Shown: positions 24,888 through 34,564 of the stretch, piece after piece
How the letters are laid out: each line of letters starts with the position of its first letter
Numbering within the stretch: the first letter of the stretch is position 1
Source: Bryobacteraceae bacterium
GTDB lineage: Bacteria; Acidobacteriota; Terriglobia; Bryobacterales; Bryobacteraceae
NCBI GenBank assembly: GCA_030037375.1
Contig: JASHRP010000253.1
Span: forward strand, 1-34,564
Length of the DNA stretch: 34,564 nt
Direction of reading: 5' to 3'
Position numbers and translations under genes: made by a program
Notes under the pieces: generated by a model
Databases searched by the model: none
Told to the model about the DNA's origin: nothing
Seen by the model: the letters and a program-made list of their open reading frames with translations, nothing else

Positions 24888-25406
24888 TTAGGCGTCCCGG
24901 TCAAACGCGCTTTCGAGCGGAATGTCAATATCCGGATTCTCCGCGCGCAGCGTCGCTGCGGCCATCCCCTCCGGATGCTGGCGCGAATAAATGAGTGCCG
25001 CCTTCTCCTCCGGATCAATCACCCAGACCCATTCCACGCCGATGGAAAGATAATCCTCAATCTTCGGAACTATCCGCACCATCCGATCTTCGGGCGACAA
25101 TATCTCGACGGCGAGGAACGGAGGAACCGTAGGAATATGGGTACCGATGTTATCGTCACGCCAGACCGAAATATCGGGAACTCTAAAGCGGCGAGGATGT
25201 ATCTGGACCCTGAGCTCTGTCATCACGCGGATTCCCAGCGTTTTCCGGAACCGCCATAACAAGCGGTACAAGTTGCCCTGAACATCGGCATGCGGAATTT
25301 CGCCCATATTCCTCTCGACCACTTCGCCATCAACGTATTCGCAATCTGGGCCCTCAAAGCTGGTTCGAAGGTACTCTTCGACATCCATCAGGACTTTGGT
25401 GCTCAT
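24888..25406 (-). CDS. Uma2 family (DUF820) PD-(D/E)xK nuclease-like protein
   Basis: 172 residues. The family pattern is visible: YVDGEVVERNMGE near the start, VPDISVW with the metal-binding Asp, FLAVEILSPEDR with the second acid, and GVEWVWVIDPEEK. These proteins have a restriction-endonuclease-like fold and are multiplied in cyanobacteria and Acidobacteriota; their role is unknown. GAGG lies 5 nt before the ATG. The gene is divergent from the sigma factor operon with 103 nt between. Confidence 0.85.
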   Translation of the reverse strand: MSTKVLMDVEEYLRTSFEGPDCEYVDGEVVERNMGEIPHADVQGNLYRLLWRFRKTLGIRVMTELRVQIHPRRFRVPDISVWRDDNIGTHIPTVPPFLAVEILSPEDRMVRIVPKIEDYLSIGVEWVWVIDPEEKAALIYSRQHPEGMAAATLRAENPDIDIPLESAFDRDA

Positions 25407-25443: not shown

Positions 25444-25509
25444 CGGAAAAAGATGTCCCCCTCCGACTTTTTCCACACCTCCCTCGTCTCTACCAACGGA
25501 GCCATTTGA

Positions 25510-26055
25510 GTGATCTTCCGGGAAGTCGAAGATCGCGACCTGATCGCTAAAGCGCGGCGGGGAGACGTGGAGGCCTTCAACCTCCTTGTGTCCCGGTGGG
25601 AGAAGCGCGTCTTCAACTACCTGCTGCGCCTGCTCGCGAACCGGGAGGATGCGCTCGATGTGACCCAGGACGTGTTCTTGAAGGCATACCAGAACTTATC
25701 TAAGCTGGACGACGCGGCCCGTTTCGCCGGGTGGCTGTTCCGGATTGCTCATAACGAAGCTTTCTCCTTGCTTCGCCGTAAGCGTCCGGAGAGTGAGCTT
25801 CCTCTCGAGCTCAAACCCGCCGAAACGGGCCGCCTTCTTCCGCTCGAGCTCTCCTTGGCCGTCGAAAGCGCCCTCAAGCGCCTCAATGAGGATCAGCGCG
25901 AGGCCGTCCTCCTCAAGGTCTATCAAGGCTTCAAGTTCGACGAGATCGCCGAAATTCTGGACTGCCCGGTCTCAACCGTCAAGTCTCGTGTCTACACCGC
26001 GCTGGAGCTTTTGAAAACGGTGCTCGCTCCTAGCGTAATAAGAGGGGAACTATGA
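25510..26055 (+). CDS. ECF-type RNA polymerase sigma factor
   Basis: 181 residues from GTG 25510. Region 2 (about 15-85) contains LVSRWEKRVFNYLLRLL, the DALDVTQDVFLKAYQNL helix for core binding and the -10-binding FAGWLFRIAHNEAF. Region 4 (about 120-170) has LNEDQREAVLLKVYQGFKF and the helix-turn-helix EIAEILDCPVSTVKSRV. It has no region 1 or 3, hence group IV (ECF). The next gene encodes its probable zinc anti-sigma (4-nt ATGA overlap). It heads a run that continues into the type II secretion genes, which it may control. Confidence 0.92.
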   Translation: MIFREVEDRDLIAKARRGDVEAFNLLVSRWEKRVFNYLLRLLANREDALDVTQDVFLKAYQNLSKLDDAARFAGWLFRIAHNEAFSLLRRKRPESELPLELKPAETGRLLPLELSLAVESALKRLNEDQREAVLLKVYQGFKFDEIAEILDCPVSTVKSRVYTALELLKTVLAPSVIRGEL

Positions 26056-26519
26056 GTTGTCAATACGATTGGAAATCTTACGCGCTCGGCGAAATGGATC
26101 GCTCCGCGCGCCGCGAGGCCGAGGCCCATGCCAACGCCTGCCCCGCTTGCCGTGAAGAGCTGGCGTCGACGCGCCTGACTCTCGACGCCTTGTCCACCCT
26201 GCGCGAGGAAGAAATCCCCCGCCGGATCGCCTTCGTCTCCGACCAGATTTTCGAGCCGCGCTGGTACCAGCGAGCCTTCCGATCTCTGTGGAGCCCGAAT
26301 TTCGCCGCCGCTTGTGTGGTCGCCGGAGCAATTCTGTTCCACGCCTTTCGCGGCACGCCGGACCAGGCCGTGGTGAACGCGCAGATCGATGCCGCGGTGA
26401 GTAAAGCGGTCGCCGTGGAAGACGCCCGCTATGCCGAGCAGTTCGAAAGGCTGGCGAGCCAGGTGAATGCTCGCAGCGAGGTCTTCACCAGGACTGTGAA
26501 CAGGGAGGTTCGGCAATGA
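26052..26519 (+). CDS. Zinc-finger anti-sigma factor, single membrane span
   Basis: 155 residues. HANACPACREEL (about 26-37) is the H-x3-C-x2-C zinc anti-sigma (ZAS) motif that holds the sigma factor. A hydrophobic segment NFAAACVVAGAILF (about 83-96) is probably the one membrane span, with a largely alpha-helical C-terminal region on the outer side of the membrane. Start and stop both overlap neighbouring genes by 4 nt. It should sequester the sigma factor at the membrane until a signal releases it; the signal is unknown. Confidence 0.88.
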   Translation: MSCQYDWKSYALGEMDRSARREAEAHANACPACREELASTRLTLDALSTLREEEIPRRIAFVSDQIFEPRWYQRAFRSLWSPNFAAACVVAGAILFHAFRGTPDQAVVNAQIDAAVSKAVAVEDARYAEQFERLASQVNARSEVFTRTVNREVRQ

Positions 26520-27055
26520 GAGCCTTCATTCTGGCCGGTTTTGTAATTGCCCTGGGAGCCACCGCGGGAGCAATCGCGGATACGCCCGCCGTCCCTCGCA
26601 CGGCGATTCGAGCGGCGGAGCTAAGTCTCGACGAACGGCTGCAGCGCATTTTCCCGGATACGCCATCCGCATTGGTGGGCACCACGCGAGGTATTTATCT
26701 GGAGGGCTATGGCGCAGTATTTACGGCGGAGATGGAGCCGGTCACCGACGGAACTAGCCTGATGAACTCGGTTCTGCGGCCGGAGCAAAAGGTCGAAGTC
26801 CTGAAGAAGAAAGTCGGCCGCATCCCCGACCTGCGCAAAGCCATGGAGAGCGCGCTGGTGGAGACCGCCGCATCGCTCGACTCGGTCCCGCTCGATGAGC
26901 AGGTGGTTCTGGAAGTCGTGATCGACCGTTTCCTCTGGGAAGACGGCAAGGGCTATCCGGCAGAGCTGATGGTGCAAGCGCCGCGCCGCAAGCTGCTCGA
27001 CATAAAGCATGCCAATGGCGCAGGCATGGAAGCCATCCGCGTGACCCAGCGGTAA
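26516..27055 (+). CDS. Exported protein of unknown function between anti-sigma and gspE
   Basis: 179 residues with a signal peptide (about 1-22, ending AIADTP). The mature part has GTTRGIYLEGYGAVFTAEMEPV (about 57-78, shown in part) and VPLDEQVVLEVVIDRFLWED. It has no catalytic motif I know. The pattern resembles hypothetical proteins I associate with acidobacterial sigma/anti-sigma loci, but I cannot name a family. It overlaps the anti-sigma stop by 4 nt and is 9 nt from gspE. It could sense periplasmic state for the anti-sigma or assist secretion; both are guesses. Confidence 0.72.
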   Translation: MRAFILAGFVIALGATAGAIADTPAVPRTAIRAAELSLDERLQRIFPDTPSALVGTTRGIYLEGYGAVFTAEMEPVTDGTSLMNSVLRPEQKVEVLKKKVGRIPDLRKAMESALVETAASLDSVPLDEQVVLEVVIDRFLWEDGKGYPAELMVQAPRRKLLDIKHANGAGMEAIRVTQR

Positions 27056-27064
27056 TCCGGGACC

Positions 27065-28699
<1,635 letters not shown>

Positions 28700-28700
28700 A

Positions 28701-29915
28701 ATGGCGACGGCTTATTTCTTCAAAGCGGTCGCCTCCGACGGCAAAACGCGCACCGGAACACTCACGGCTGAATCCGAGCGCCTCGTCGCCGCCGAGCTGC
28801 GCCGTCAAGGCCTCGTTCCGGTCCAGGTCAGCGCCCAGGCGCCGAAGAAGGGCATCCAGATCAATCTTCCGGTGCTCGACGGCGGCCGGCGCCGCGACGT
28901 CCTCTTCTTCACCTCCGAAGTTTCAACTCTGTTGAACGCCGGCGTTCCGCTTGACCGCACGCTTTCCGTCACTGCCCAGTTGAGTGAGCGCGCCAGCTTC
29001 CGCGCCCTCGTCACCGACATCCTGCGCATTTTGAAGAGCGGCAAATCTCTCGCCGACAGCCTCGCCGCGCATCCCGGGCATTTCTCCGAGCTCTACGTCA
29101 ACATGGTGCGCGCCGGCGAAGCCTCCGGCTCGCTCGCGCTCATCTTCGAAAGGCTTGCCGAATTCGAGCGCACCCGTGATGACCTGCGCGGCTATATCGT
29201 CAGCTCGATGATCTATCCGTGCCTGCTCACCTCGGTCGGCATCGCGTCCATCATCGTGTTGCTCGAATTCGTGGTTCCGCGCTTCGCCTTGATCTTCTCC
29301 GATCCGCATATGAAGATCCCCACTCCCACGCTTCTGATGATGCAGGCGAGCGCGATCATCCAGACCTGGTGGCTCCCGTTCGTCATCGCCCTCGCGGCGG
29401 CCATCATCGCGTTCACCACGTATATTCGCACTGTGCCCGGGAGACTGTGGTGGGATACTCTTCGCCTCCGCATCCCGCTGATCGGAGACGCTCTGCGCAA
29501 GGCCGAAACCTCGCGTTTCGCGCGCGCCATGGGCACTCTCGTCGCATCAAGTGTTCCGCTGGTCACCGCCATCGGCATCTCCGGAGGCATTCTCAACAAC
29601 CGGCTCATGGCCGGTTCCCTCGAAACCGTCGCGCAAGGGGTGAAGCGCGGTGAAGGCATTTCCCAGCCGCTTCAGAAGACCGGCGCATTTCCTCCGCTCG
29701 CCGGATATCTGCTCGCGGTGGGCGAGGAAACCGGCCATCTCGATTCCATGTTCTACCGCATGGCCGATATCTACGAAAACGAAACGCGCACGTCTATCCG
29801 CCGTTTCACTTCGCTGTTCGAGCCGCTCATCATCCTGACGATGGGCATTGTCATCGGCAGCCTAATCTTAAGCTTGCTGCTCGCCATCACGAGCATTAAC
29901 AACGTGGACCTATGA
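28701..29915 (+). CDS. gspF: Type II secretion inner-membrane platform protein GspF
   Basis: 404 residues. Two GspF cytoplasmic domains repeat: about 65-190 with FFTSEVSTLLNAGVPLDRTL, and about 265-390 with FARAMGTLVASSVPLVTAI. Three membrane segments are visible (about 170-195, 220-245, 375-400). It forms the platform on which GspE works. Its N-terminus YFFKAVASDGKTRTGTL is the usual start of the family. The stop overlaps the gspG start by 4 nt. Confidence 0.94.
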   Translation: MATAYFFKAVASDGKTRTGTLTAESERLVAAELRRQGLVPVQVSAQAPKKGIQINLPVLDGGRRRDVLFFTSEVSTLLNAGVPLDRTLSVTAQLSERASFRALVTDILRILKSGKSLADSLAAHPGHFSELYVNMVRAGEASGSLALIFERLAEFERTRDDLRGYIVSSMIYPCLLTSVGIASIIVLLEFVVPRFALIFSDPHMKIPTPTLLMMQASAIIQTWWLPFVIALAAAIIAFTTYIRTVPGRLWWDTLRLRIPLIGDALRKAETSRFARAMGTLVASSVPLVTAIGISGGILNNRLMAGSLETVAQGVKRGEGISQPLQKTGAFPPLAGYLLAVGEETGHLDSMFYRMADIYENETRTSIRRFTSLFEPLIILTMGIVIGSLILSLLLAITSINNVDL

Positions 29916-30355
29916 AACGAATCCTTTCCCGCAAACGACGCCAGCGAGGTGTCACTTTGATCGAGATGCTCGTGGTGGTGGTCATCATGGGCCTGTTCGT
30001 CGGCCTTGTCGGCGTAAGCCTCTTTCGCCGCGCCGACGAAGCCAAGCGCACCGCCGCGCGCACTCAGATCGACTCCTTTATGACCGCCCTCGGAGCCTAC
30101 AAACTCGACACCGGCAACTTCCCCAACACCGATCAGGGTCTCAAAGCTCTGCTAGTCAAACCCGAAGGCGTCGATCAATGGTCCGGTCCCTATTTGCCGA
30201 AGGATGTTCCCCTCGACCCGTGGGGCCACACCTACTGGTACAAATATCCGGGCGAGCACGGCGATCAGCCTGACTTGATCTCCTATGGCGCGGACGGCCA
30301 GCCAGGCGGCGAAGGAAATAATGCCGACATCGAGAGCTGGTCGAATTCGAAATAA
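29912..30355 (+). CDS. gspG: Major pseudopilin GspG
   Basis: 147 residues. A short basic leader ends RG, followed by VTLIEMLVVVVIMG: prepilin peptidase cleavage after Gly with Glu at +5. The C-terminus YGADGQPGGEGNNADIESW is the calcium-binding loop typical of GspG. It polymerises into the pseudopilus after processing by a prepilin peptidase (not in this window). Confidence 0.95.
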   Translation: MKRILSRKRRQRGVTLIEMLVVVVIMGLFVGLVGVSLFRRADEAKRTAARTQIDSFMTALGAYKLDTGNFPNTDQGLKALLVKPEGVDQWSGPYLPKDVPLDPWGHTYWYKYPGEHGDQPDLISYGADGQPGGEGNNADIESWSNSK

Positions 30356-30926
30356 GCTTCCCGCACAACGGAGCCTCGCGCGGCTACGTCGGTCAGGGCG
30401 GGTCCGAATCGGAGCGTCCGCGCGGGCCCTGTGCGGTCCGCCGAAGGGGGTTCGTGGGCGGCGCGGTGTTACGCTCATTGAGCTGCTGTTGGTGGTCACC
30501 ATCATGGCCCTGCTCGCAGCAGTGACTTATCCCACTGCTGCTTCCGGCCTTGACTCCCTCCGCCTCCGCACCGCTTCCGAGCGCGTCATGGCCCTGCTCA
30601 ATCTCGCGCTCGACCGCGCGGATCAACTCCAGCAGGTCATCGAAATCCGCATCTCGCCGGCCGATAACGCAATCTCTGCACGCTCCGTCGACCTGGCCTT
30701 GAACCGAACTTTGGAAATTCCCTCGCCGATCCGCATCGTCTCCGCCGGCCCTCCCCTGCCGAATCAAATTCCCGCGCCGACGGAAATGCGCCGCTATCTC
30801 CTCTATCCCGGCGGCTCGCCGCCACGCATCGGCATCGAACTTGAATCGCCCGAAGGCCGGCGCCGCCGCATCTCCGCCGACCCGATCACCGGCACGCTCC
30901 ATTCCGAGGTCGTCGCATCGCAATGA
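30321..30926 (+). CDS. gspH: Pseudopilin GspH with an unusually long leader
   Basis: 201 residues if it starts at ATG 30321, which has GAAGG 5 nt upstream and overlaps gspG by 35 nt. The prepilin site GRRG/VTLIELLLVV is then at residue 49, a long Arg-rich leader where 6-20 is normal. No ATG, GTG or TTG occurs between. A CTG at 30429 would give a normal 13-residue leader but has no ribosome binding site. The mature protein (about 152 residues) has the GspH-like hydrophobic helix and variable beta region. Its stop overlaps gspI by 4 nt. Confidence 0.8.
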   Translation: MPTSRAGRIRNKLPAQRSLARLRRSGRVRIGASARALCGPPKGVRGRRGVTLIELLLVVTIMALLAAVTYPTAASGLDSLRLRTASERVMALLNLALDRADQLQQVIEIRISPADNAISARSVDLALNRTLEIPSPIRIVSAGPPLPNQIPAPTEMRRYLLYPGGSPPRIGIELESPEGRRRRISADPITGTLHSEVVASQ

Positions 30927-31375
30927 ATTTTTCCACGACGCGTCGCCGCAGAGCCAAGCGAGGGTTTACCCTGCTGGAGGTTCTCGTCGCCGCGGTCATC
31001 ATGGGCGTCGCCGTCGCCGGGCTCATGAGCGGACTTTCGGCGTCCACCCGCAACGCTGCCCGCCTTTCGCAGTTCGACCGCGCCACGCTGTTCGCGCAGC
31101 AAAAGATGGATGAGCTTCTGGTCGCCTCTGAGATCCATCGTGGCCAACCCCTCCAAGGCATCTTCGATCCAGCCGTGACCGGCGGCCAGCAAATCGGCTG
31201 GGACGCTGTGATCCTCCCGTTTGAGACAGCGCCAGGCGCCGGGCCGGGCATGTGGGTGCTGGATCGCGTGCAGCTCGAAATCTGGTGGATGGATGGGCAA
31301 ACCCGCCGCTCATTTTCGCTCGAAGGCTTCCGCCGTGGAATCCTCCAGAACGGAGATCCCACTCATGTGCCGTAA
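30923..31375 (+). CDS. gspI: Minor pseudopilin GspI
   Basis: 150 residues. Leader with basic residues ending KRG, cleavage before FTLLEVLVAAVIMG, Glu at +5. ARLSQFDRATLFAQQKMDELL is the conserved region downstream of the GspI helix. It forms part of the pseudopilus tip with GspJ and GspK. Its end overlaps the gspJ start by 11 nt, so translation is coupled. Confidence 0.88.
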   Translation: MNFSTTRRRRAKRGFTLLEVLVAAVIMGVAVAGLMSGLSASTRNAARLSQFDRATLFAQQKMDELLVASEIHRGQPLQGIFDPAVTGGQQIGWDAVILPFETAPGAGPGMWVLDRVQLEIWWMDGQTRRSFSLEGFRRGILQNGDPTHVP

Positions 31376-32078
31376 GAGGCCCCGTATATCCCGGGCGCGA
31401 TCCGCAGGCTTCACGCTGATCGAAATGATCATCGCCGTGACGCTGGTCGCCGCGATCATCTCCGGCCTGCTGATTTCCATGCGCACCGGTCTCTCGGCTT
31501 ATCAACGGGTGAATCAGCGCCTGGAGGACAATCGCCGCGCCATGGGACTTGACCAGGCTCTGCATCGCCAGCTCGGGGGAATGATGCCCGTGAGCGCTCC
31601 TTGCGGACCCGGCTCGGCCAGGATTCCGGTGTTCGACGGCGCTCCGTCCTGGCTGCGCTTCGTGAGCAGCTCATCGCTTGCCGAAGGCGCGCGCGGCTAT
31701 CCGCGCATCGTCGAATACTTGGTCGATAACGACCCTCGCGGCGGCGTGCGCCTGATGATGAATGAGCGCATCTACACGGGCCCGGCGAGTCTCCTGCCAT
31801 TGTGCGCCAATAATTCCTTTGTCCCGGTCACGCTGAATCCGCAATCCTTCGAAATGGCCGGCCGCCTGGCGTATTGCCGCTTCGGCTATCGCGTGACCGC
31901 TCCGGATTTCGTCAGCGGAGGCGATTGGCTGCCGCTTTGGCAAGCCCCCAATCTTCCCCGGGCCGTACGCATCGAAATGGCGCCCCTCGACTCCGGCCCA
32001 TCCCGGCTTCCGATGCTCAGCGTGAATGTCCCGGTCCACATCACCCGCGACGTGCTTGGCCCTTATGCGGACAATTAA
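31365..32078 (+). CDS. gspJ: Minor pseudopilin GspJ
   Basis: 237 residues from ATG 31365, which has CGGAG 9 nt upstream. The open frame extends back to 31221, but that part lies inside gspI. Leader MCRKRPRISRARSAG, cleavage before FTLIEMIIAVTLVAA with Glu at +5. RLEDNRRAMGLDQAL is typical of GspJ. Its end overlaps gspK by 14 nt. Confidence 0.86.
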   Translation: MCRKRPRISRARSAGFTLIEMIIAVTLVAAIISGLLISMRTGLSAYQRVNQRLEDNRRAMGLDQALHRQLGGMMPVSAPCGPGSARIPVFDGAPSWLRFVSSSSLAEGARGYPRIVEYLVDNDPRGGVRLMMNERIYTGPASLLPLCANNSFVPVTLNPQSFEMAGRLAYCRFGYRVTAPDFVSGGDWLPLWQAPNLPRAVRIEMAPLDSGPSRLPMLSVNVPVHITRDVLGPYADN

Positions 32079-33123
32079 ACGTCCCGGCCGGCGTGGCAGC
32101 GCGCTTCTCGCCGTTATGTGGATTGCGGCGGCGCTCGCCGCGATCGCCTTCGCGCTCTCCTCCACGGTCCGGTCCGAAATCAATCGCGTGGGAGGCTCAG
32201 CCGACGGTCTGCGAACTTCCTACCTCGCCAGCGGCTCAGTCGAACGCGGCATCCAATGGATGCTGTGGGGGTGGACCGGCTACAACCAGACCAATCCCGA
32301 CGGCACGCCGCGCTTCTGGCTTCCCGGCACGCCTCGCATGGTCATGCACTATCCCAGCGGCGACGCTGTGGTTGAACTGATTCCCGACTCGGCCAAGCTC
32401 AATATAAACTCCGCCAGCCCCGATGAGCTCCTTCGAGTCATCACCGCCGTCAGCGGCGATCCGGCTCTCGCCCGCAACATCGCCGAGGCCATCATCGACT
32501 GGCGAACCCCGCCCGCGGGCGGCTCTAGCCCCTTGGATTCGTTCTATTTGTCGCTTGGGCCGACTTTCCTACCCCGGCACGCGTCCTTTGAGGAGATTGA
32601 AGAATTATTGCTGGTGCGCGGCGTGACCCCGGAACTCTTCTATGGCAACTTCGTGAGCGACGCGGAAGGCCGCTTGTTCGCCCGGGGCGGTCTTCGCGAT
32701 TGCCTGTCGGTCTGGGGCAGTCACGGCCCTTACGACATCAACACTGCCAGCCCCGCGCTGATGGAAGCAGCCGGCGTGCCGGCGAATTCGATCTCCCAGA
32801 TCCTGCAGCGCCGCACGATCCGGCCGTTTCACGACATGGGTGAGGTTCAGAGTCTCGGCATCGCCGCGCCGGGCCTCATGGTCGGAGGCAATCTGATCTG
32901 GACACTCCGCGCCACGGCGCGATTGCGCCGCGCTGACGGCTCGCCCTCCGATGTGCTTCGCACTTCATCGGCGACGGTGAAGTTGCTCGATGTCAGGCGC
33001 TTCCCGCAGATGCCGTTACACGTTCTGCGTTATTACGACGATGCCTGGAGCGAGTTAGAACTCGCACCGCCGGCGCGGCCTCTTGCGCCCGCCGCGCCGG
33101 TCCTCGGAGCCGCGCTGCCATGA
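32065..33123 (+). CDS. gspK: Tip pseudopilin GspK
   Basis: 352 residues from ATG 32065; the longer open frame to 32026 lies inside gspJ. Leader MRTIKRPGRRG, then SALLAVMWIAAALAAIAFAL. As usual for GspK, the Glu at +5 is absent, which marks it as the tip subunit. The large periplasmic part includes LNINSASPDELLRVI and DINTASPALMEAAGVP helix-hairpin-helix-like segments seen in GspK. The stop overlaps gspL by 4 nt. Confidence 0.88.
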   Translation: MRTIKRPGRRGSALLAVMWIAAALAAIAFALSSTVRSEINRVGGSADGLRTSYLASGSVERGIQWMLWGWTGYNQTNPDGTPRFWLPGTPRMVMHYPSGDAVVELIPDSAKLNINSASPDELLRVITAVSGDPALARNIAEAIIDWRTPPAGGSSPLDSFYLSLGPTFLPRHASFEEIEELLLVRGVTPELFYGNFVSDAEGRLFARGGLRDCLSVWGSHGPYDINTASPALMEAAGVPANSISQILQRRTIRPFHDMGEVQSLGIAAPGLMVGGNLIWTLRATARLRRADGSPSDVLRTSSATVKLLDVRRFPQMPLHVLRYYDDAWSELELAPPARPLAPAAPVLGAALP

Positions 33124-34406
33124 TTCCCGGTGGTCTCAAAAAGGCGCTGGCTTTCGGCAGCGGAGTCGGCATCCAGATCGCCGGTTCTCCGGGCGGAGAG
33201 TCGCTCCGCATCGCTGCCGTCCGCGTCCGTCCGAACGGCGCGCGTCTCGTCGAGACGCTTTTCATAGAGGACTTCCAGCGTCAGCCCGCCGGGGTCTGGG
33301 GCGCCGATTACGGAGCCTTTCTGCGCAAACTCGGCATGCGCCAAGCCGTCGCGGTGGTGTTATTGCCCCGCGCGGCCGTGACTTTGCGCCCGATCTCGCT
33401 GCCCGGCGTCTCCGACAGCGATCTCGCCAACGCCGTCCGCTTTCAGATGGACGGCTTGCATCCCTATAGCGAAGACGATGTGTACTCCGGCTGGACGCGC
33501 CTTCCCGGAACGTCGACCGTGCTGGTCGCAGTCGCGCGCCGCCCGGTCGTCGACCGCTATGAGGCATTGTTTGAAGAAGCCGGCATTCGCGTGAGCGGAT
33601 TCACTTGCTCGGCCGCCGCTATCTATTCCGCGCTTCGGTTTTTCGGAGCCGCGCCTCCAGCCGAAATACTCGCGGTCGACGATTCCAGCGGCGCGCTCGA
33701 ATTTTACGGTGAAAGTCCCGCGCGTCCGCTCTTCTCCGCGAGCTTCGACGCCTCGAATGATCGCGCGTCAGCGCTCGCCGCGGCGGAGCTGCGCATTTCT
33801 CCAGGCGCTGAACCTGTCACGCTCTCGAAGCTCCTCGGCTCGGACCATCCGCTGCCCTTCGCCGCCGCGCTCTCTTCCGCCTGCCCGCTACTGTCGCTGC
33901 CCTTGAATCTTCTGCCGGCCGACCGCCGCCAGGCTAGTTCGCGCCTTCGCTGGGCGCCGACCGTCGCTCTCGGAACCGCCGCGCTCGCCCTTGCCGCCAT
34001 GTTCATCGGCTTCCCGGCTTACGAAAACCACAAATACATCAGATCGCTCGAAGGGCAGATCAAGGCCGTCACTCCAGCCGCAGACCGCGCCGCGGCCATC
34101 GATAAGCAAGTGGCGGCCGTGCGCGGCCGGATCCAGCTTCTCGACGACTGGCGTCGTCATCCCAAGGCCGACATGGACGTTCTCGCCGAGCTTACCCGCA
34201 TCCTGCCTCCGCCCACTTGGGTCAATCTCATGCAGATTTCGCCCAAGCAAGTGATCGTCGGCGGCGAAACGCCGGAGGCCGCGCCTCTGCTCTCCGTGCT
34301 CGACAATTCGCGGTTGTTCGAAGGCTCCGAGTTTCAGGCTGCTCCCATACGCGTTACCGGCGGCGAGCAGTTCCGCATCAGGACCAATCGCGAAGGGGTG
34401 AAGTAG
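33120..34406 (+). CDS. gspL: GspL/PilM-PilN-like inner-membrane assembly protein
   Basis: 428 residues. The N-terminal part (about 1-270) is actin/PilM-like with GSGVGIQIAG and LPGVSDSDLANAVRFQMDG. One membrane segment follows (about 278-300, with LGTAALALAAMFIG). The periplasmic part (about 305-428) has a coiled-coil-like stretch and a PilN/GspL-like LPPPTWVNLMQISPKQVIVGG. The layout combines PilM and PilN as GspL does. It links GspE to the platform. The gspM-like gene starts 3 nt later. Confidence 0.8.
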   Translation: MIPGGLKKALAFGSGVGIQIAGSPGGESLRIAAVRVRPNGARLVETLFIEDFQRQPAGVWGADYGAFLRKLGMRQAVAVVLLPRAAVTLRPISLPGVSDSDLANAVRFQMDGLHPYSEDDVYSGWTRLPGTSTVLVAVARRPVVDRYEALFEEAGIRVSGFTCSAAAIYSALRFFGAAPPAEILAVDDSSGALEFYGESPARPLFSASFDASNDRASALAAAELRISPGAEPVTLSKLLGSDHPLPFAAALSSACPLLSLPLNLLPADRRQASSRLRWAPTVALGTAALALAAMFIGFPAYENHKYIRSLEGQIKAVTPAADRAAAIDKQVAAVRGRIQLLDDWRRHPKADMDVLAELTRILPPPTWVNLMQISPKQVIVGGETPEAAPLLSVLDNSRLFEGSEFQAAPIRVTGGEQFRIRTNREGVK

Positions 34407-34409
34407 AGG

Positions 34410-34564
34410 ATGGAAATCACCGCTCGGGAACGCCGGTCTCTTGCCTGGCTGGGCGTCTCGCTGGTGCTCTCCGCAGCCTGGTATTTCATTCAATCGTCCG
34501 GGAGCAGCACGCCCGTCGTCTCTGCTTCAGTGGACTCCGCGGCTCTCGACGAACGGCGCTTGGC
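34410..34564 (+). CDS. gspM: GspM-like protein, N-terminus, cut by window edge
   Basis: An ATG at 34410 opens a frame that runs off the right edge. Visible are a basic cytoplasmic start (MEITARERRSLAWLG), one hydrophobic segment (VSLVLSAAWYFI) and the beginning of a periplasmic part. The topology and position after gspL fit GspM, the partner of GspL; too little is present for certainty. Confidence 0.6.
   Translation, partial: MEITARERRSLAWLGVSLVLSAAWYFIQSSGSSTPVVSASVDSAALDERRL

Follow-up and report, generated by a model that had tools for sequence, protein, structure and literature searches.

Does a type II secretion system (T2SS) of Acidobacteriota have a sigma factor of its own? Acidobacteriota are abundant soil bacteria of which few can be cultured, and the control of their enzyme export is therefore largely obscure. 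The question is raised by a stretch of 34,564 nucleotides (nt) from a Bryobacteraceae bacterium (contig JASHRP010000253.1 of assembly GCA_030037375.1), here called the window, which is an entire contig of a 5.8 Mb draft genome. Between positions 25510 and 34564 of its plus strand, genes for an extracytoplasmic function (ECF) sigma factor, an anti-sigma factor with a zinc motif and an exported protein of 179 amino acids, labelled EXP, are followed by gspE-F-G-H-I-J-K-L-M, all on one strand and tightly packed. We suggest that these genes provide one T2SS of Acidobacteriota with an ECF sigma switch that is dedicated to it and regulates itself. This reading is in our view highly probable, given the conservation of the gene block, a promoter of ECF type before the sigma gene, and copies of that promoter elsewhere among the gsp genes.

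The gene block and its conservation

25510–26055 (+): ECF sigma factor, 181 amino acids, GTG start; Pfam Sigma70_r2 59.6 bits and Sigma70_r4_2 57.3 bits, both above cut-off
26052–26519 (+): class I (zinc-motif) anti-sigma factor; profile match to RslA (3hug), Foldseek, AlphaFold model and ortholog alignment
26516–27055 (+): EXP, small exported protein; signal peptide, single-copy orthologs
27065–28699 (+): gspE, T2SS ATPase with N-terminal MshEN repeats of the type that binds cyclic di-GMP (c-di-GMP); T2SSE 471.8 bits, MshEN 66.2 bits
28701–29915 (+): gspF; T2SSF 170 bits
29912–30355 (+): gspG, major pseudopilin; TIGR01710 151 bits, cut-off 88.85
30285–30926 (+): gspH, minor pseudopilin, start uncertain and probably later than 30285; N_methyl 27.4 bits, top NCBIfam model gspH
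30923–31375 (+): gspI, minor pseudopilin; N_methyl 33.3 bits, XpsI/GspI
about 31365–32078 (+): gspJ, minor pseudopilin; N_methyl 25.8 bits, PRK08808 protein J
about 32026–33123 (+): gspK, start possibly some 40 nt later; T2SSK_1st 29.4 bits
33120–34406 (+): gspL, PilM-like and PilN-like; PilN 27.2 bits, PilM_2 24.3 bits
34410–34564 (+): 5' part of gspM, truncated at the contig end; open frame MEITARERRSLAWLG..., whose ortholog in locus L031 is T2SSM_b

A gene-by-gene examination confirmed that the genes stand on one strand in the order, and with the small overlaps and gaps, given in a preliminary description of this DNA. Overlaps of 4 nt join the sigma and anti-sigma genes, the anti-sigma gene and EXP, gspF and gspG, gspH and gspI, and gspK and gspL; gaps of 9, 1 and 3 nt separate EXP from gspE, gspE from gspF and gspL from gspM; and the overlaps of gspG with gspH, gspI with gspJ and gspJ with gspK are longer and vary with the start codon chosen. 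No terminator or sigma-70-like signal above chance was found across the operon stretch, the junction between EXP and gspE included. The T2SS components GspE, GspF, GspG, H to K, GspL and GspM were all identified in the window, the last as an open frame. GspC and GspD had been noted as absent from the visible part, and they are missing from the window: in the nearest relative gspM is followed by a GspC-like frame and the secretin gene gspD (141.8 bits), a position that in the window would fall beyond the contig end. The N-terminus of gspE (27065–27230) encodes two c-di-GMP-binding repeats of the MshEN type (NF053729 61.4 bits, cut-off 38), which suggests that control of the ATPase by c-di-GMP may form a second, post-translational level of regulation. 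Upstream of the sigma gene lies a Uma2-type nuclease-like frame (24888–25406, minus strand), and such a frame is also found upstream of the sigma gene in the closest relative (L031:548-1063, minus strand), where further genes stand between the two.

EXP orthologs were found in 45 of 61 relatives, and 35 loci, each at most 20 kb long, were taken around these orthologs. In all 35, as far as the contigs reach, the genes follow one another as sigma, anti-sigma, EXP and gspE-F-G-H-I-J-K-L, three anti-sigma genes overlooked by BLAST being recovered by profile. When the sigma protein was used for an unbiased scan, 80 public contigs were returned; among the roughly 50 closest, from metagenome assemblies of Acidobacteria and Bryobacterales, nearly all have the gene in this block, and the remoter sigma factors (at most 44% identity, mostly from other phyla) lie outside such a block. 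The recurrence of one order in 35 relative loci and nearly 50 public contigs means that the arrangement is not due to chance, and the comparison of synteny in other Acidobacteriota that had been proposed as a check thus found the linkage conserved.

Profile searches extended the block to families f1 to f12 of the class. Of the 299 genomes of the class, 98 have an EXP ortholog, in a single copy, and all 94 genomes of the class that are positive for GspG (E < 1e-20) are among them. Only four genomes, G044, G098, G101 and G118, have EXP without GspG; these were rejected as real exceptions, being sub-threshold cases or fragmented genomes, with a diverged gspG detected by BLAST in G044. Elsewhere in the phylum 20 genomes are EXP-positive, and in 19 of them some 3.5 kb separate EXP from GspG. 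In other classes, the nine T2SS loci that have an orthologous sigma gene all carry EXP, with the gene order of the block retained, whereas the five without one (L240 and L243 to L246) have no EXP, and EXP therefore follows the regulatory module and not the T2SS as such. A locus of another class (L241:10351-11421, minus strand, family f28) has an unrelated pair of ECF sigma and zinc anti-sigma genes before gspE and no EXP, which is possibly an independent recruitment. On these comparisons, in which most of the genomes are metagenome assemblies, the block is conserved class-wide and, in most T2SS lineages sampled, phylum-wide.

The sigma factor, the anti-sigma factor and EXP

According to Pfam the sigma factor consists of the sigma2 and sigma4 domains, with no sigma3 domain and nothing else. 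Its GTG start at 25510 is preceded by an in-frame TGA at 25507. All full-length orthologs examined begin with GTG or TTG and none with ATG; an in-frame stop often stands immediately before the start, and this choice of start codon is perhaps kept for low translation. At sigma codons 33 and 34 (25606–25611) synonymous codon choice is moderately biased among the orthologs, and the promoter motif described below does not account for it.

The anti-sigma factor has an Hx3Cx2C motif at residues 26 to 33 and one transmembrane helix, and its zf-HC2 match of 20.5 bits is just below the cut-off of 22.2. Its profile matches RslA (3hug, E 1.8e-6), Foldseek also relates it to RslA (probability 0.96), and the ChrR structure was matched as well; it is therefore a class I (ASDI, or zinc) anti-sigma factor with an N-terminal three-helix domain. 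The AlphaFold model comprises a helix bundle (7–52), an unstructured segment (53–70), a short helix, the transmembrane helix (82–99) and a periplasmic helix (105–154). The best conserved motif in the ortholog alignment is the near-invariant linker PRRIAFVSDQIFEP, which lies in the unstructured segment. By position it probably corresponds to the sigma2-binding linker and fourth helix of known complexes, in which these parts of the anti-sigma factor bind sigma2 (PMC7406223), and by analogy the protein would bind and inhibit the sigma factor of the operon. Across residues 53 to 69 (26208–26258) of the window protein and its orthologs, EEEIPRRIAFVSDQIFEP is conserved above the zinc ligands and yet is unstructured in the monomer prediction. 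The Hx3Cx2C motif, which is not obligatory in the class I family, is present in the window protein and in 78 of 99 orthologs; the ligands are lost in the other 21, and zinc was dropped as a candidate sensor for this reason.

EXP has a Sec-type signal peptide and no lipobox. The window protein has no match in Pfam or NCBIfam, 31 orthologs show no consistent Pfam family, and a comparison with PDB sequences gave no match below E 0.39. Its structural model, a confident one (pLDDT 90.5), has the predicted order a-b-b-a-b-b-a-b. Fold comparison gave a best VIA Z of 8.5 (CamS C-terminal domain, 3ib5) and 5.8 for a FliF ring domain; in Foldseek the best E was 0.11, with the T2SS pilotin 6i2v at 0.14, and common arrangements reach scores of this order as well. 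These are middling matches of an a-b-b-a-b-b arrangement to several unrelated small domains, so that neither a fold nor a relationship is claimed; a family missing from the fold-search lists is not thereby excluded.

The anti-sigma factor has hardly any periplasmic domain, which makes EXP the natural candidate for the sensing partner. That EXP tracks the sigma/anti-sigma module rather than the T2SS supports the idea, which we put forward as a hypothesis, that it may report envelope or secretion state to the anti-sigma factor. The main rival to this view is that EXP is a structural or assembly factor, either pilotin-like or an inner-membrane accessory, and that the sigma and anti-sigma factors sense the cue alone. 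Such a role would suit an exported, single-copy protein found in every GspG-positive genome of the class and having a pilotin among its weak Foldseek matches, but it does not account for the absence of EXP from T2SS loci without the sigma gene, nor for its position, which is always between the anti-sigma gene and gspE, and none of its structural matches is confident. We regard it as possible, though rather unlikely. More doubtful is a further proposal, that EXP is itself a T2SS substrate, which would be exported while secretion is adequate and would accumulate when capacity falls short, leading to release of the sigma factor in the manner of flagellar FlgM export. The signal peptide without a lipobox agrees with this, as does the constant co-encoding of EXP with the machine and with a membrane anti-sigma factor that barely extends into the periplasm; however, T2SS secretion signals are not predictable, and both the departure of EXP from the cell and its binding to the anti-sigma factor would have to be assumed.

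Predicted promoters of the sigma factor

25465–25488 (+): P1, predicted promoter of the operon's own ECF sigma factor, GACTTTTT-N12-CGTC; exact motif, aligned ortholog copies
32562–32585 (+): P2, sigma promoter predicted within the coding sequence of gspK, GACTTTCC-N12-CGTC; matched at 2 mismatches and weaker than P1 here

P1 stands some 45 nt ahead of the sigma gene of the window and, in orthologs, usually 43 to 60 nt before the start codon. Nearly all orthologous loci have an alignable copy of the motif (C)GACTTTTT-N12-CGTC in front of the sigma gene, at constant spacing, and by position-matrix scoring 87 of 94 sigma genes are above the threshold for the promoter. In other families drifted boxes occupy the P1 position (-10 AGTC or GCATC). 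Judged by its boxes P1 is of the ECF type, with CGTC at -10 and G(A/T)CTTTTT at -35. Canonical ECF promoters have AAC at -35 and CGT at -10 (PMC8103513). P1 resembles them in CGTC at -10, in fixed spacing and, as predicted here, in autoregulation, and differs in that G(A/T)CTTTTT replaces AAC at -35 and that the boxes drift with lineage. The conserved P1 upstream and the co-encoded anti-sigma gene, which overlaps the sigma gene, are features of an ECF system, with autoregulation as a prediction. P1 and P2 would both be recognised by the operon's sigma factor.

The exact motif occurs once in the 5.8 Mb genome, at P1 itself, and matches with one mismatch are at the level of the reversed control only. 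A stricter pattern gave 24 matches in the 61 relatives against 6 in the control, of which 20 precede sigma genes and a further one a gspH that has been relocated, and a still stricter pattern gave 37 against 6 in the 299 genomes of the class, mostly within the operon. A wider regulon was considered and rejected: strict matches outside the operon did not exceed the reversed-pattern control, and stray matches had no operon genes nearby. In genome G065 (family f12) a near-perfect copy of the promoter (L179:2690-2717, plus strand) points away from the sigma gene and faces a family 2 glycosyltransferase-like frame, the only likely regulon member seen outside the gsp operon.

A position-matrix scan revealed a cluster of matches some 500 to 620 nt before gspL, within gspK. 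The P2 site, which encodes P-(S/T)-F-x-x-R-H-A-S-F in GspK, is kept in 58 of 62 gspK orthologs with the 12-nt spacer of P1. At gspK codon 171 (S/T) the third base is T in 59 of 61 orthologs against 7.4 expected from each locus's own codon use (z 20.7), which makes this codon the strongest synonymous outlier among 2,973 codon columns of eleven genes. The adjoining codons of the motif are also synonymous outliers, and the remaining top outliers are mostly at gene starts and ends. P2 would thus account for the strongest synonymous-codon constraint of the operon, and we read it as a second sigma promoter for gspL-M-C-D. In family f5 a promoter copy at the start of gspH takes the place of the gspK copy. 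It might be argued that the site is a by-product of the protein sequence and no promoter at all, since the residues it encodes are conserved in GspK of Bryobacterales and the match is weak in the window genome. This is improbable: the rare codons TCT or ACT are used at the S/T position in those 59 orthologs, the boxes and their spacer are retained where the intervening protein varies, gene-wide synonymous shuffles of gspK match the observed score in a median of fewer than 1 in 400, and strict genome searches retrieve the gspK copies in G191 and G195. The predicted promoter within gspK would clearly illustrate how a regulatory site can impose synonymous codon choice.

Operons that have been broken up serve as natural experiments. 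By position-matrix scoring there is no promoter copy before gspF in any of 71 loci where the gap is at most 200 nt or in any of 11 where it is 200 to 1000 nt, and there is one in all four where gspF is more than 1 kb from gspE or relocated (L111, L135, L197 and L199). None of 96 loci has a copy before gspE, which never leaves the sigma block. In G049 gspH-I-J are on a separate contig with a promoter copy of their own, in G125 a relocated gspH-I-J-K has one, and in G125 and G066 gspL directly follows gspG with a copy in each. The apparent split between gspE and gspF in G096 was rejected, as it is best read as contig ends, and it has no promoter copy. Broken operons thus keep the sigma promoter, which implies that selection retained it with the gsp genes and provides unusually strong in-silico evidence for the regulon. 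That the linkage is merely an ancestral gene order, with the sigma factor regulating itself and the gsp genes served by a housekeeping promoter, is very improbable: autoregulation is common among ECF operons (PMC8103513) and a few loci have 100 to 290 nt between EXP and gspE, room for another promoter, but displaced gsp clusters carry the sigma promoter, a codon-constrained copy is embedded in gspK, and the 9-nt gap before gspE in the window shows no sigma-70-like or terminator signal above chance.

The proposed switch and its relation to known systems

Gene content, conserved linkage, P1, P2, the promoter copies on displaced clusters and the anti-sigma family are computed, comparative results, from which the following sequence of events can be proposed. 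While the system is off, a single helix would anchor the class I anti-sigma factor in the inner membrane, and the cytoplasmic domain of this protein would keep the sigma factor bound. A signal from the periplasm would end this hold by a release that we infer to be either proteolytic or conformational. The free sigma factor would then direct RNA polymerase to P1, giving positive feedback and read-through into the anti-sigma gene, EXP and gspE-L, and in Bryobacterales it would also use P2 in gspK, boosting gspL-M-C-D. All that the anti-sigma factor has in the periplasm is one helix of about 50 residues, so that a partner probably does the sensing, and EXP is the best candidate, one that could tell the anti-sigma factor of secretion load or envelope state. 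The preliminary description had suggested that the T2SS shares a transcript with a membrane-held sigma factor of its own and is probably switched by it; conservation of the block at the scale of the phylum, the ECF-type P1 and the copies at separated gsp clusters and in gspK all argue for this.

Several points weigh against the switch as we describe it. Some T2SS lineages of the phylum have no sigma module, which is therefore not essential to the machine, and some operons with insertions of 0.4 to 0.8 kb carry no additional promoter. P2 is weak in the window genome (score 18.2, 2 mismatches, shuffle p 0.02). The orthologs are phylogenetically non-independent, and z-scores and counts therefore overstate certainty. 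A contact between EXP and the anti-sigma factor is hypothetical. In the fullest version of the proposal EXP would report secretion capacity, the sigma factor, once set free, would drive the machine from both P1 and P2, the promoter would follow the gsp genes when operons break up, and all of this would hold phylum-wide; this version is tentative and, taken as a whole, not likely to be right in every part. The dedicated switch would offer a direct handle on export control, since it comes down to a single promoter sequence, a single sigma gene and a single unassigned exported protein, which are conserved together with the T2SS in several classes. If it is true that EXP is the sensor, the way in which bacteria gauge T2SS demand could be tested in a four-gene module.

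A literature search, which did not cover subscription journals and perhaps missed the main ECF classification papers, found no report of a linkage between an ECF sigma factor and a T2SS in Acidobacteriota. Related arrangements are known elsewhere. EcfK-PknS of Xanthomonas citri likewise ties an ECF sigma factor to a secretion system, but it is kinase-activated and controls a type VI secretion system (PMC8103513). RslA of M. tuberculosis and ChrR of R. sphaeroides share with the anti-sigma factor described here the three-helix domain with Hx3Cx2C, followed by a linker (PMC7406223). The Acidobacteriota protein differs in the near-invariant PRRIAFVSDKVFEP motif after the bundle, whereas the helix-4 contacts of class I anti-sigma factors are reported to be poorly conserved even within groups (PMC7406223), and in the loss of the zinc ligands from about a fifth of its orthologs (21/99).

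The one clear precedent for ECF control of an adjacent T2SS is VreI/VreR of Pseudomonas aeruginosa, which adjoins the hxc T2SS cluster and raises its expression (PMC2729926, PMC7035377). The regulon of VreA-VreI-VreR (PUMA3) is wider and PhoB-dependent, and VreR is a cell-surface signalling (CSS) regulator paired with the receptor-like VreA (PMC2729926, PMC7035377). The likeness lies in an ECF sigma factor and a transmembrane anti-sigma factor beside a T2SS cluster, with control in Acidobacteriota deduced from sequence. Hallmarks of the VreI/PUMA3 type were not seen in the window: the anti-sigma factor matches only zf-HC2 and class I models, and the operon has no receptor gene. In contrast to VreR, the Acidobacteriota anti-sigma factor is of class I (the RslA/ChrR type), and in contrast to VreI and hxc, the sigma factor, the anti-sigma factor and the new exported protein EXP head the gsp operon itself, the regulon as defined by the motif is essentially that operon, a predicted promoter lies inside gspK, and the arrangement has the depth of a phylum.

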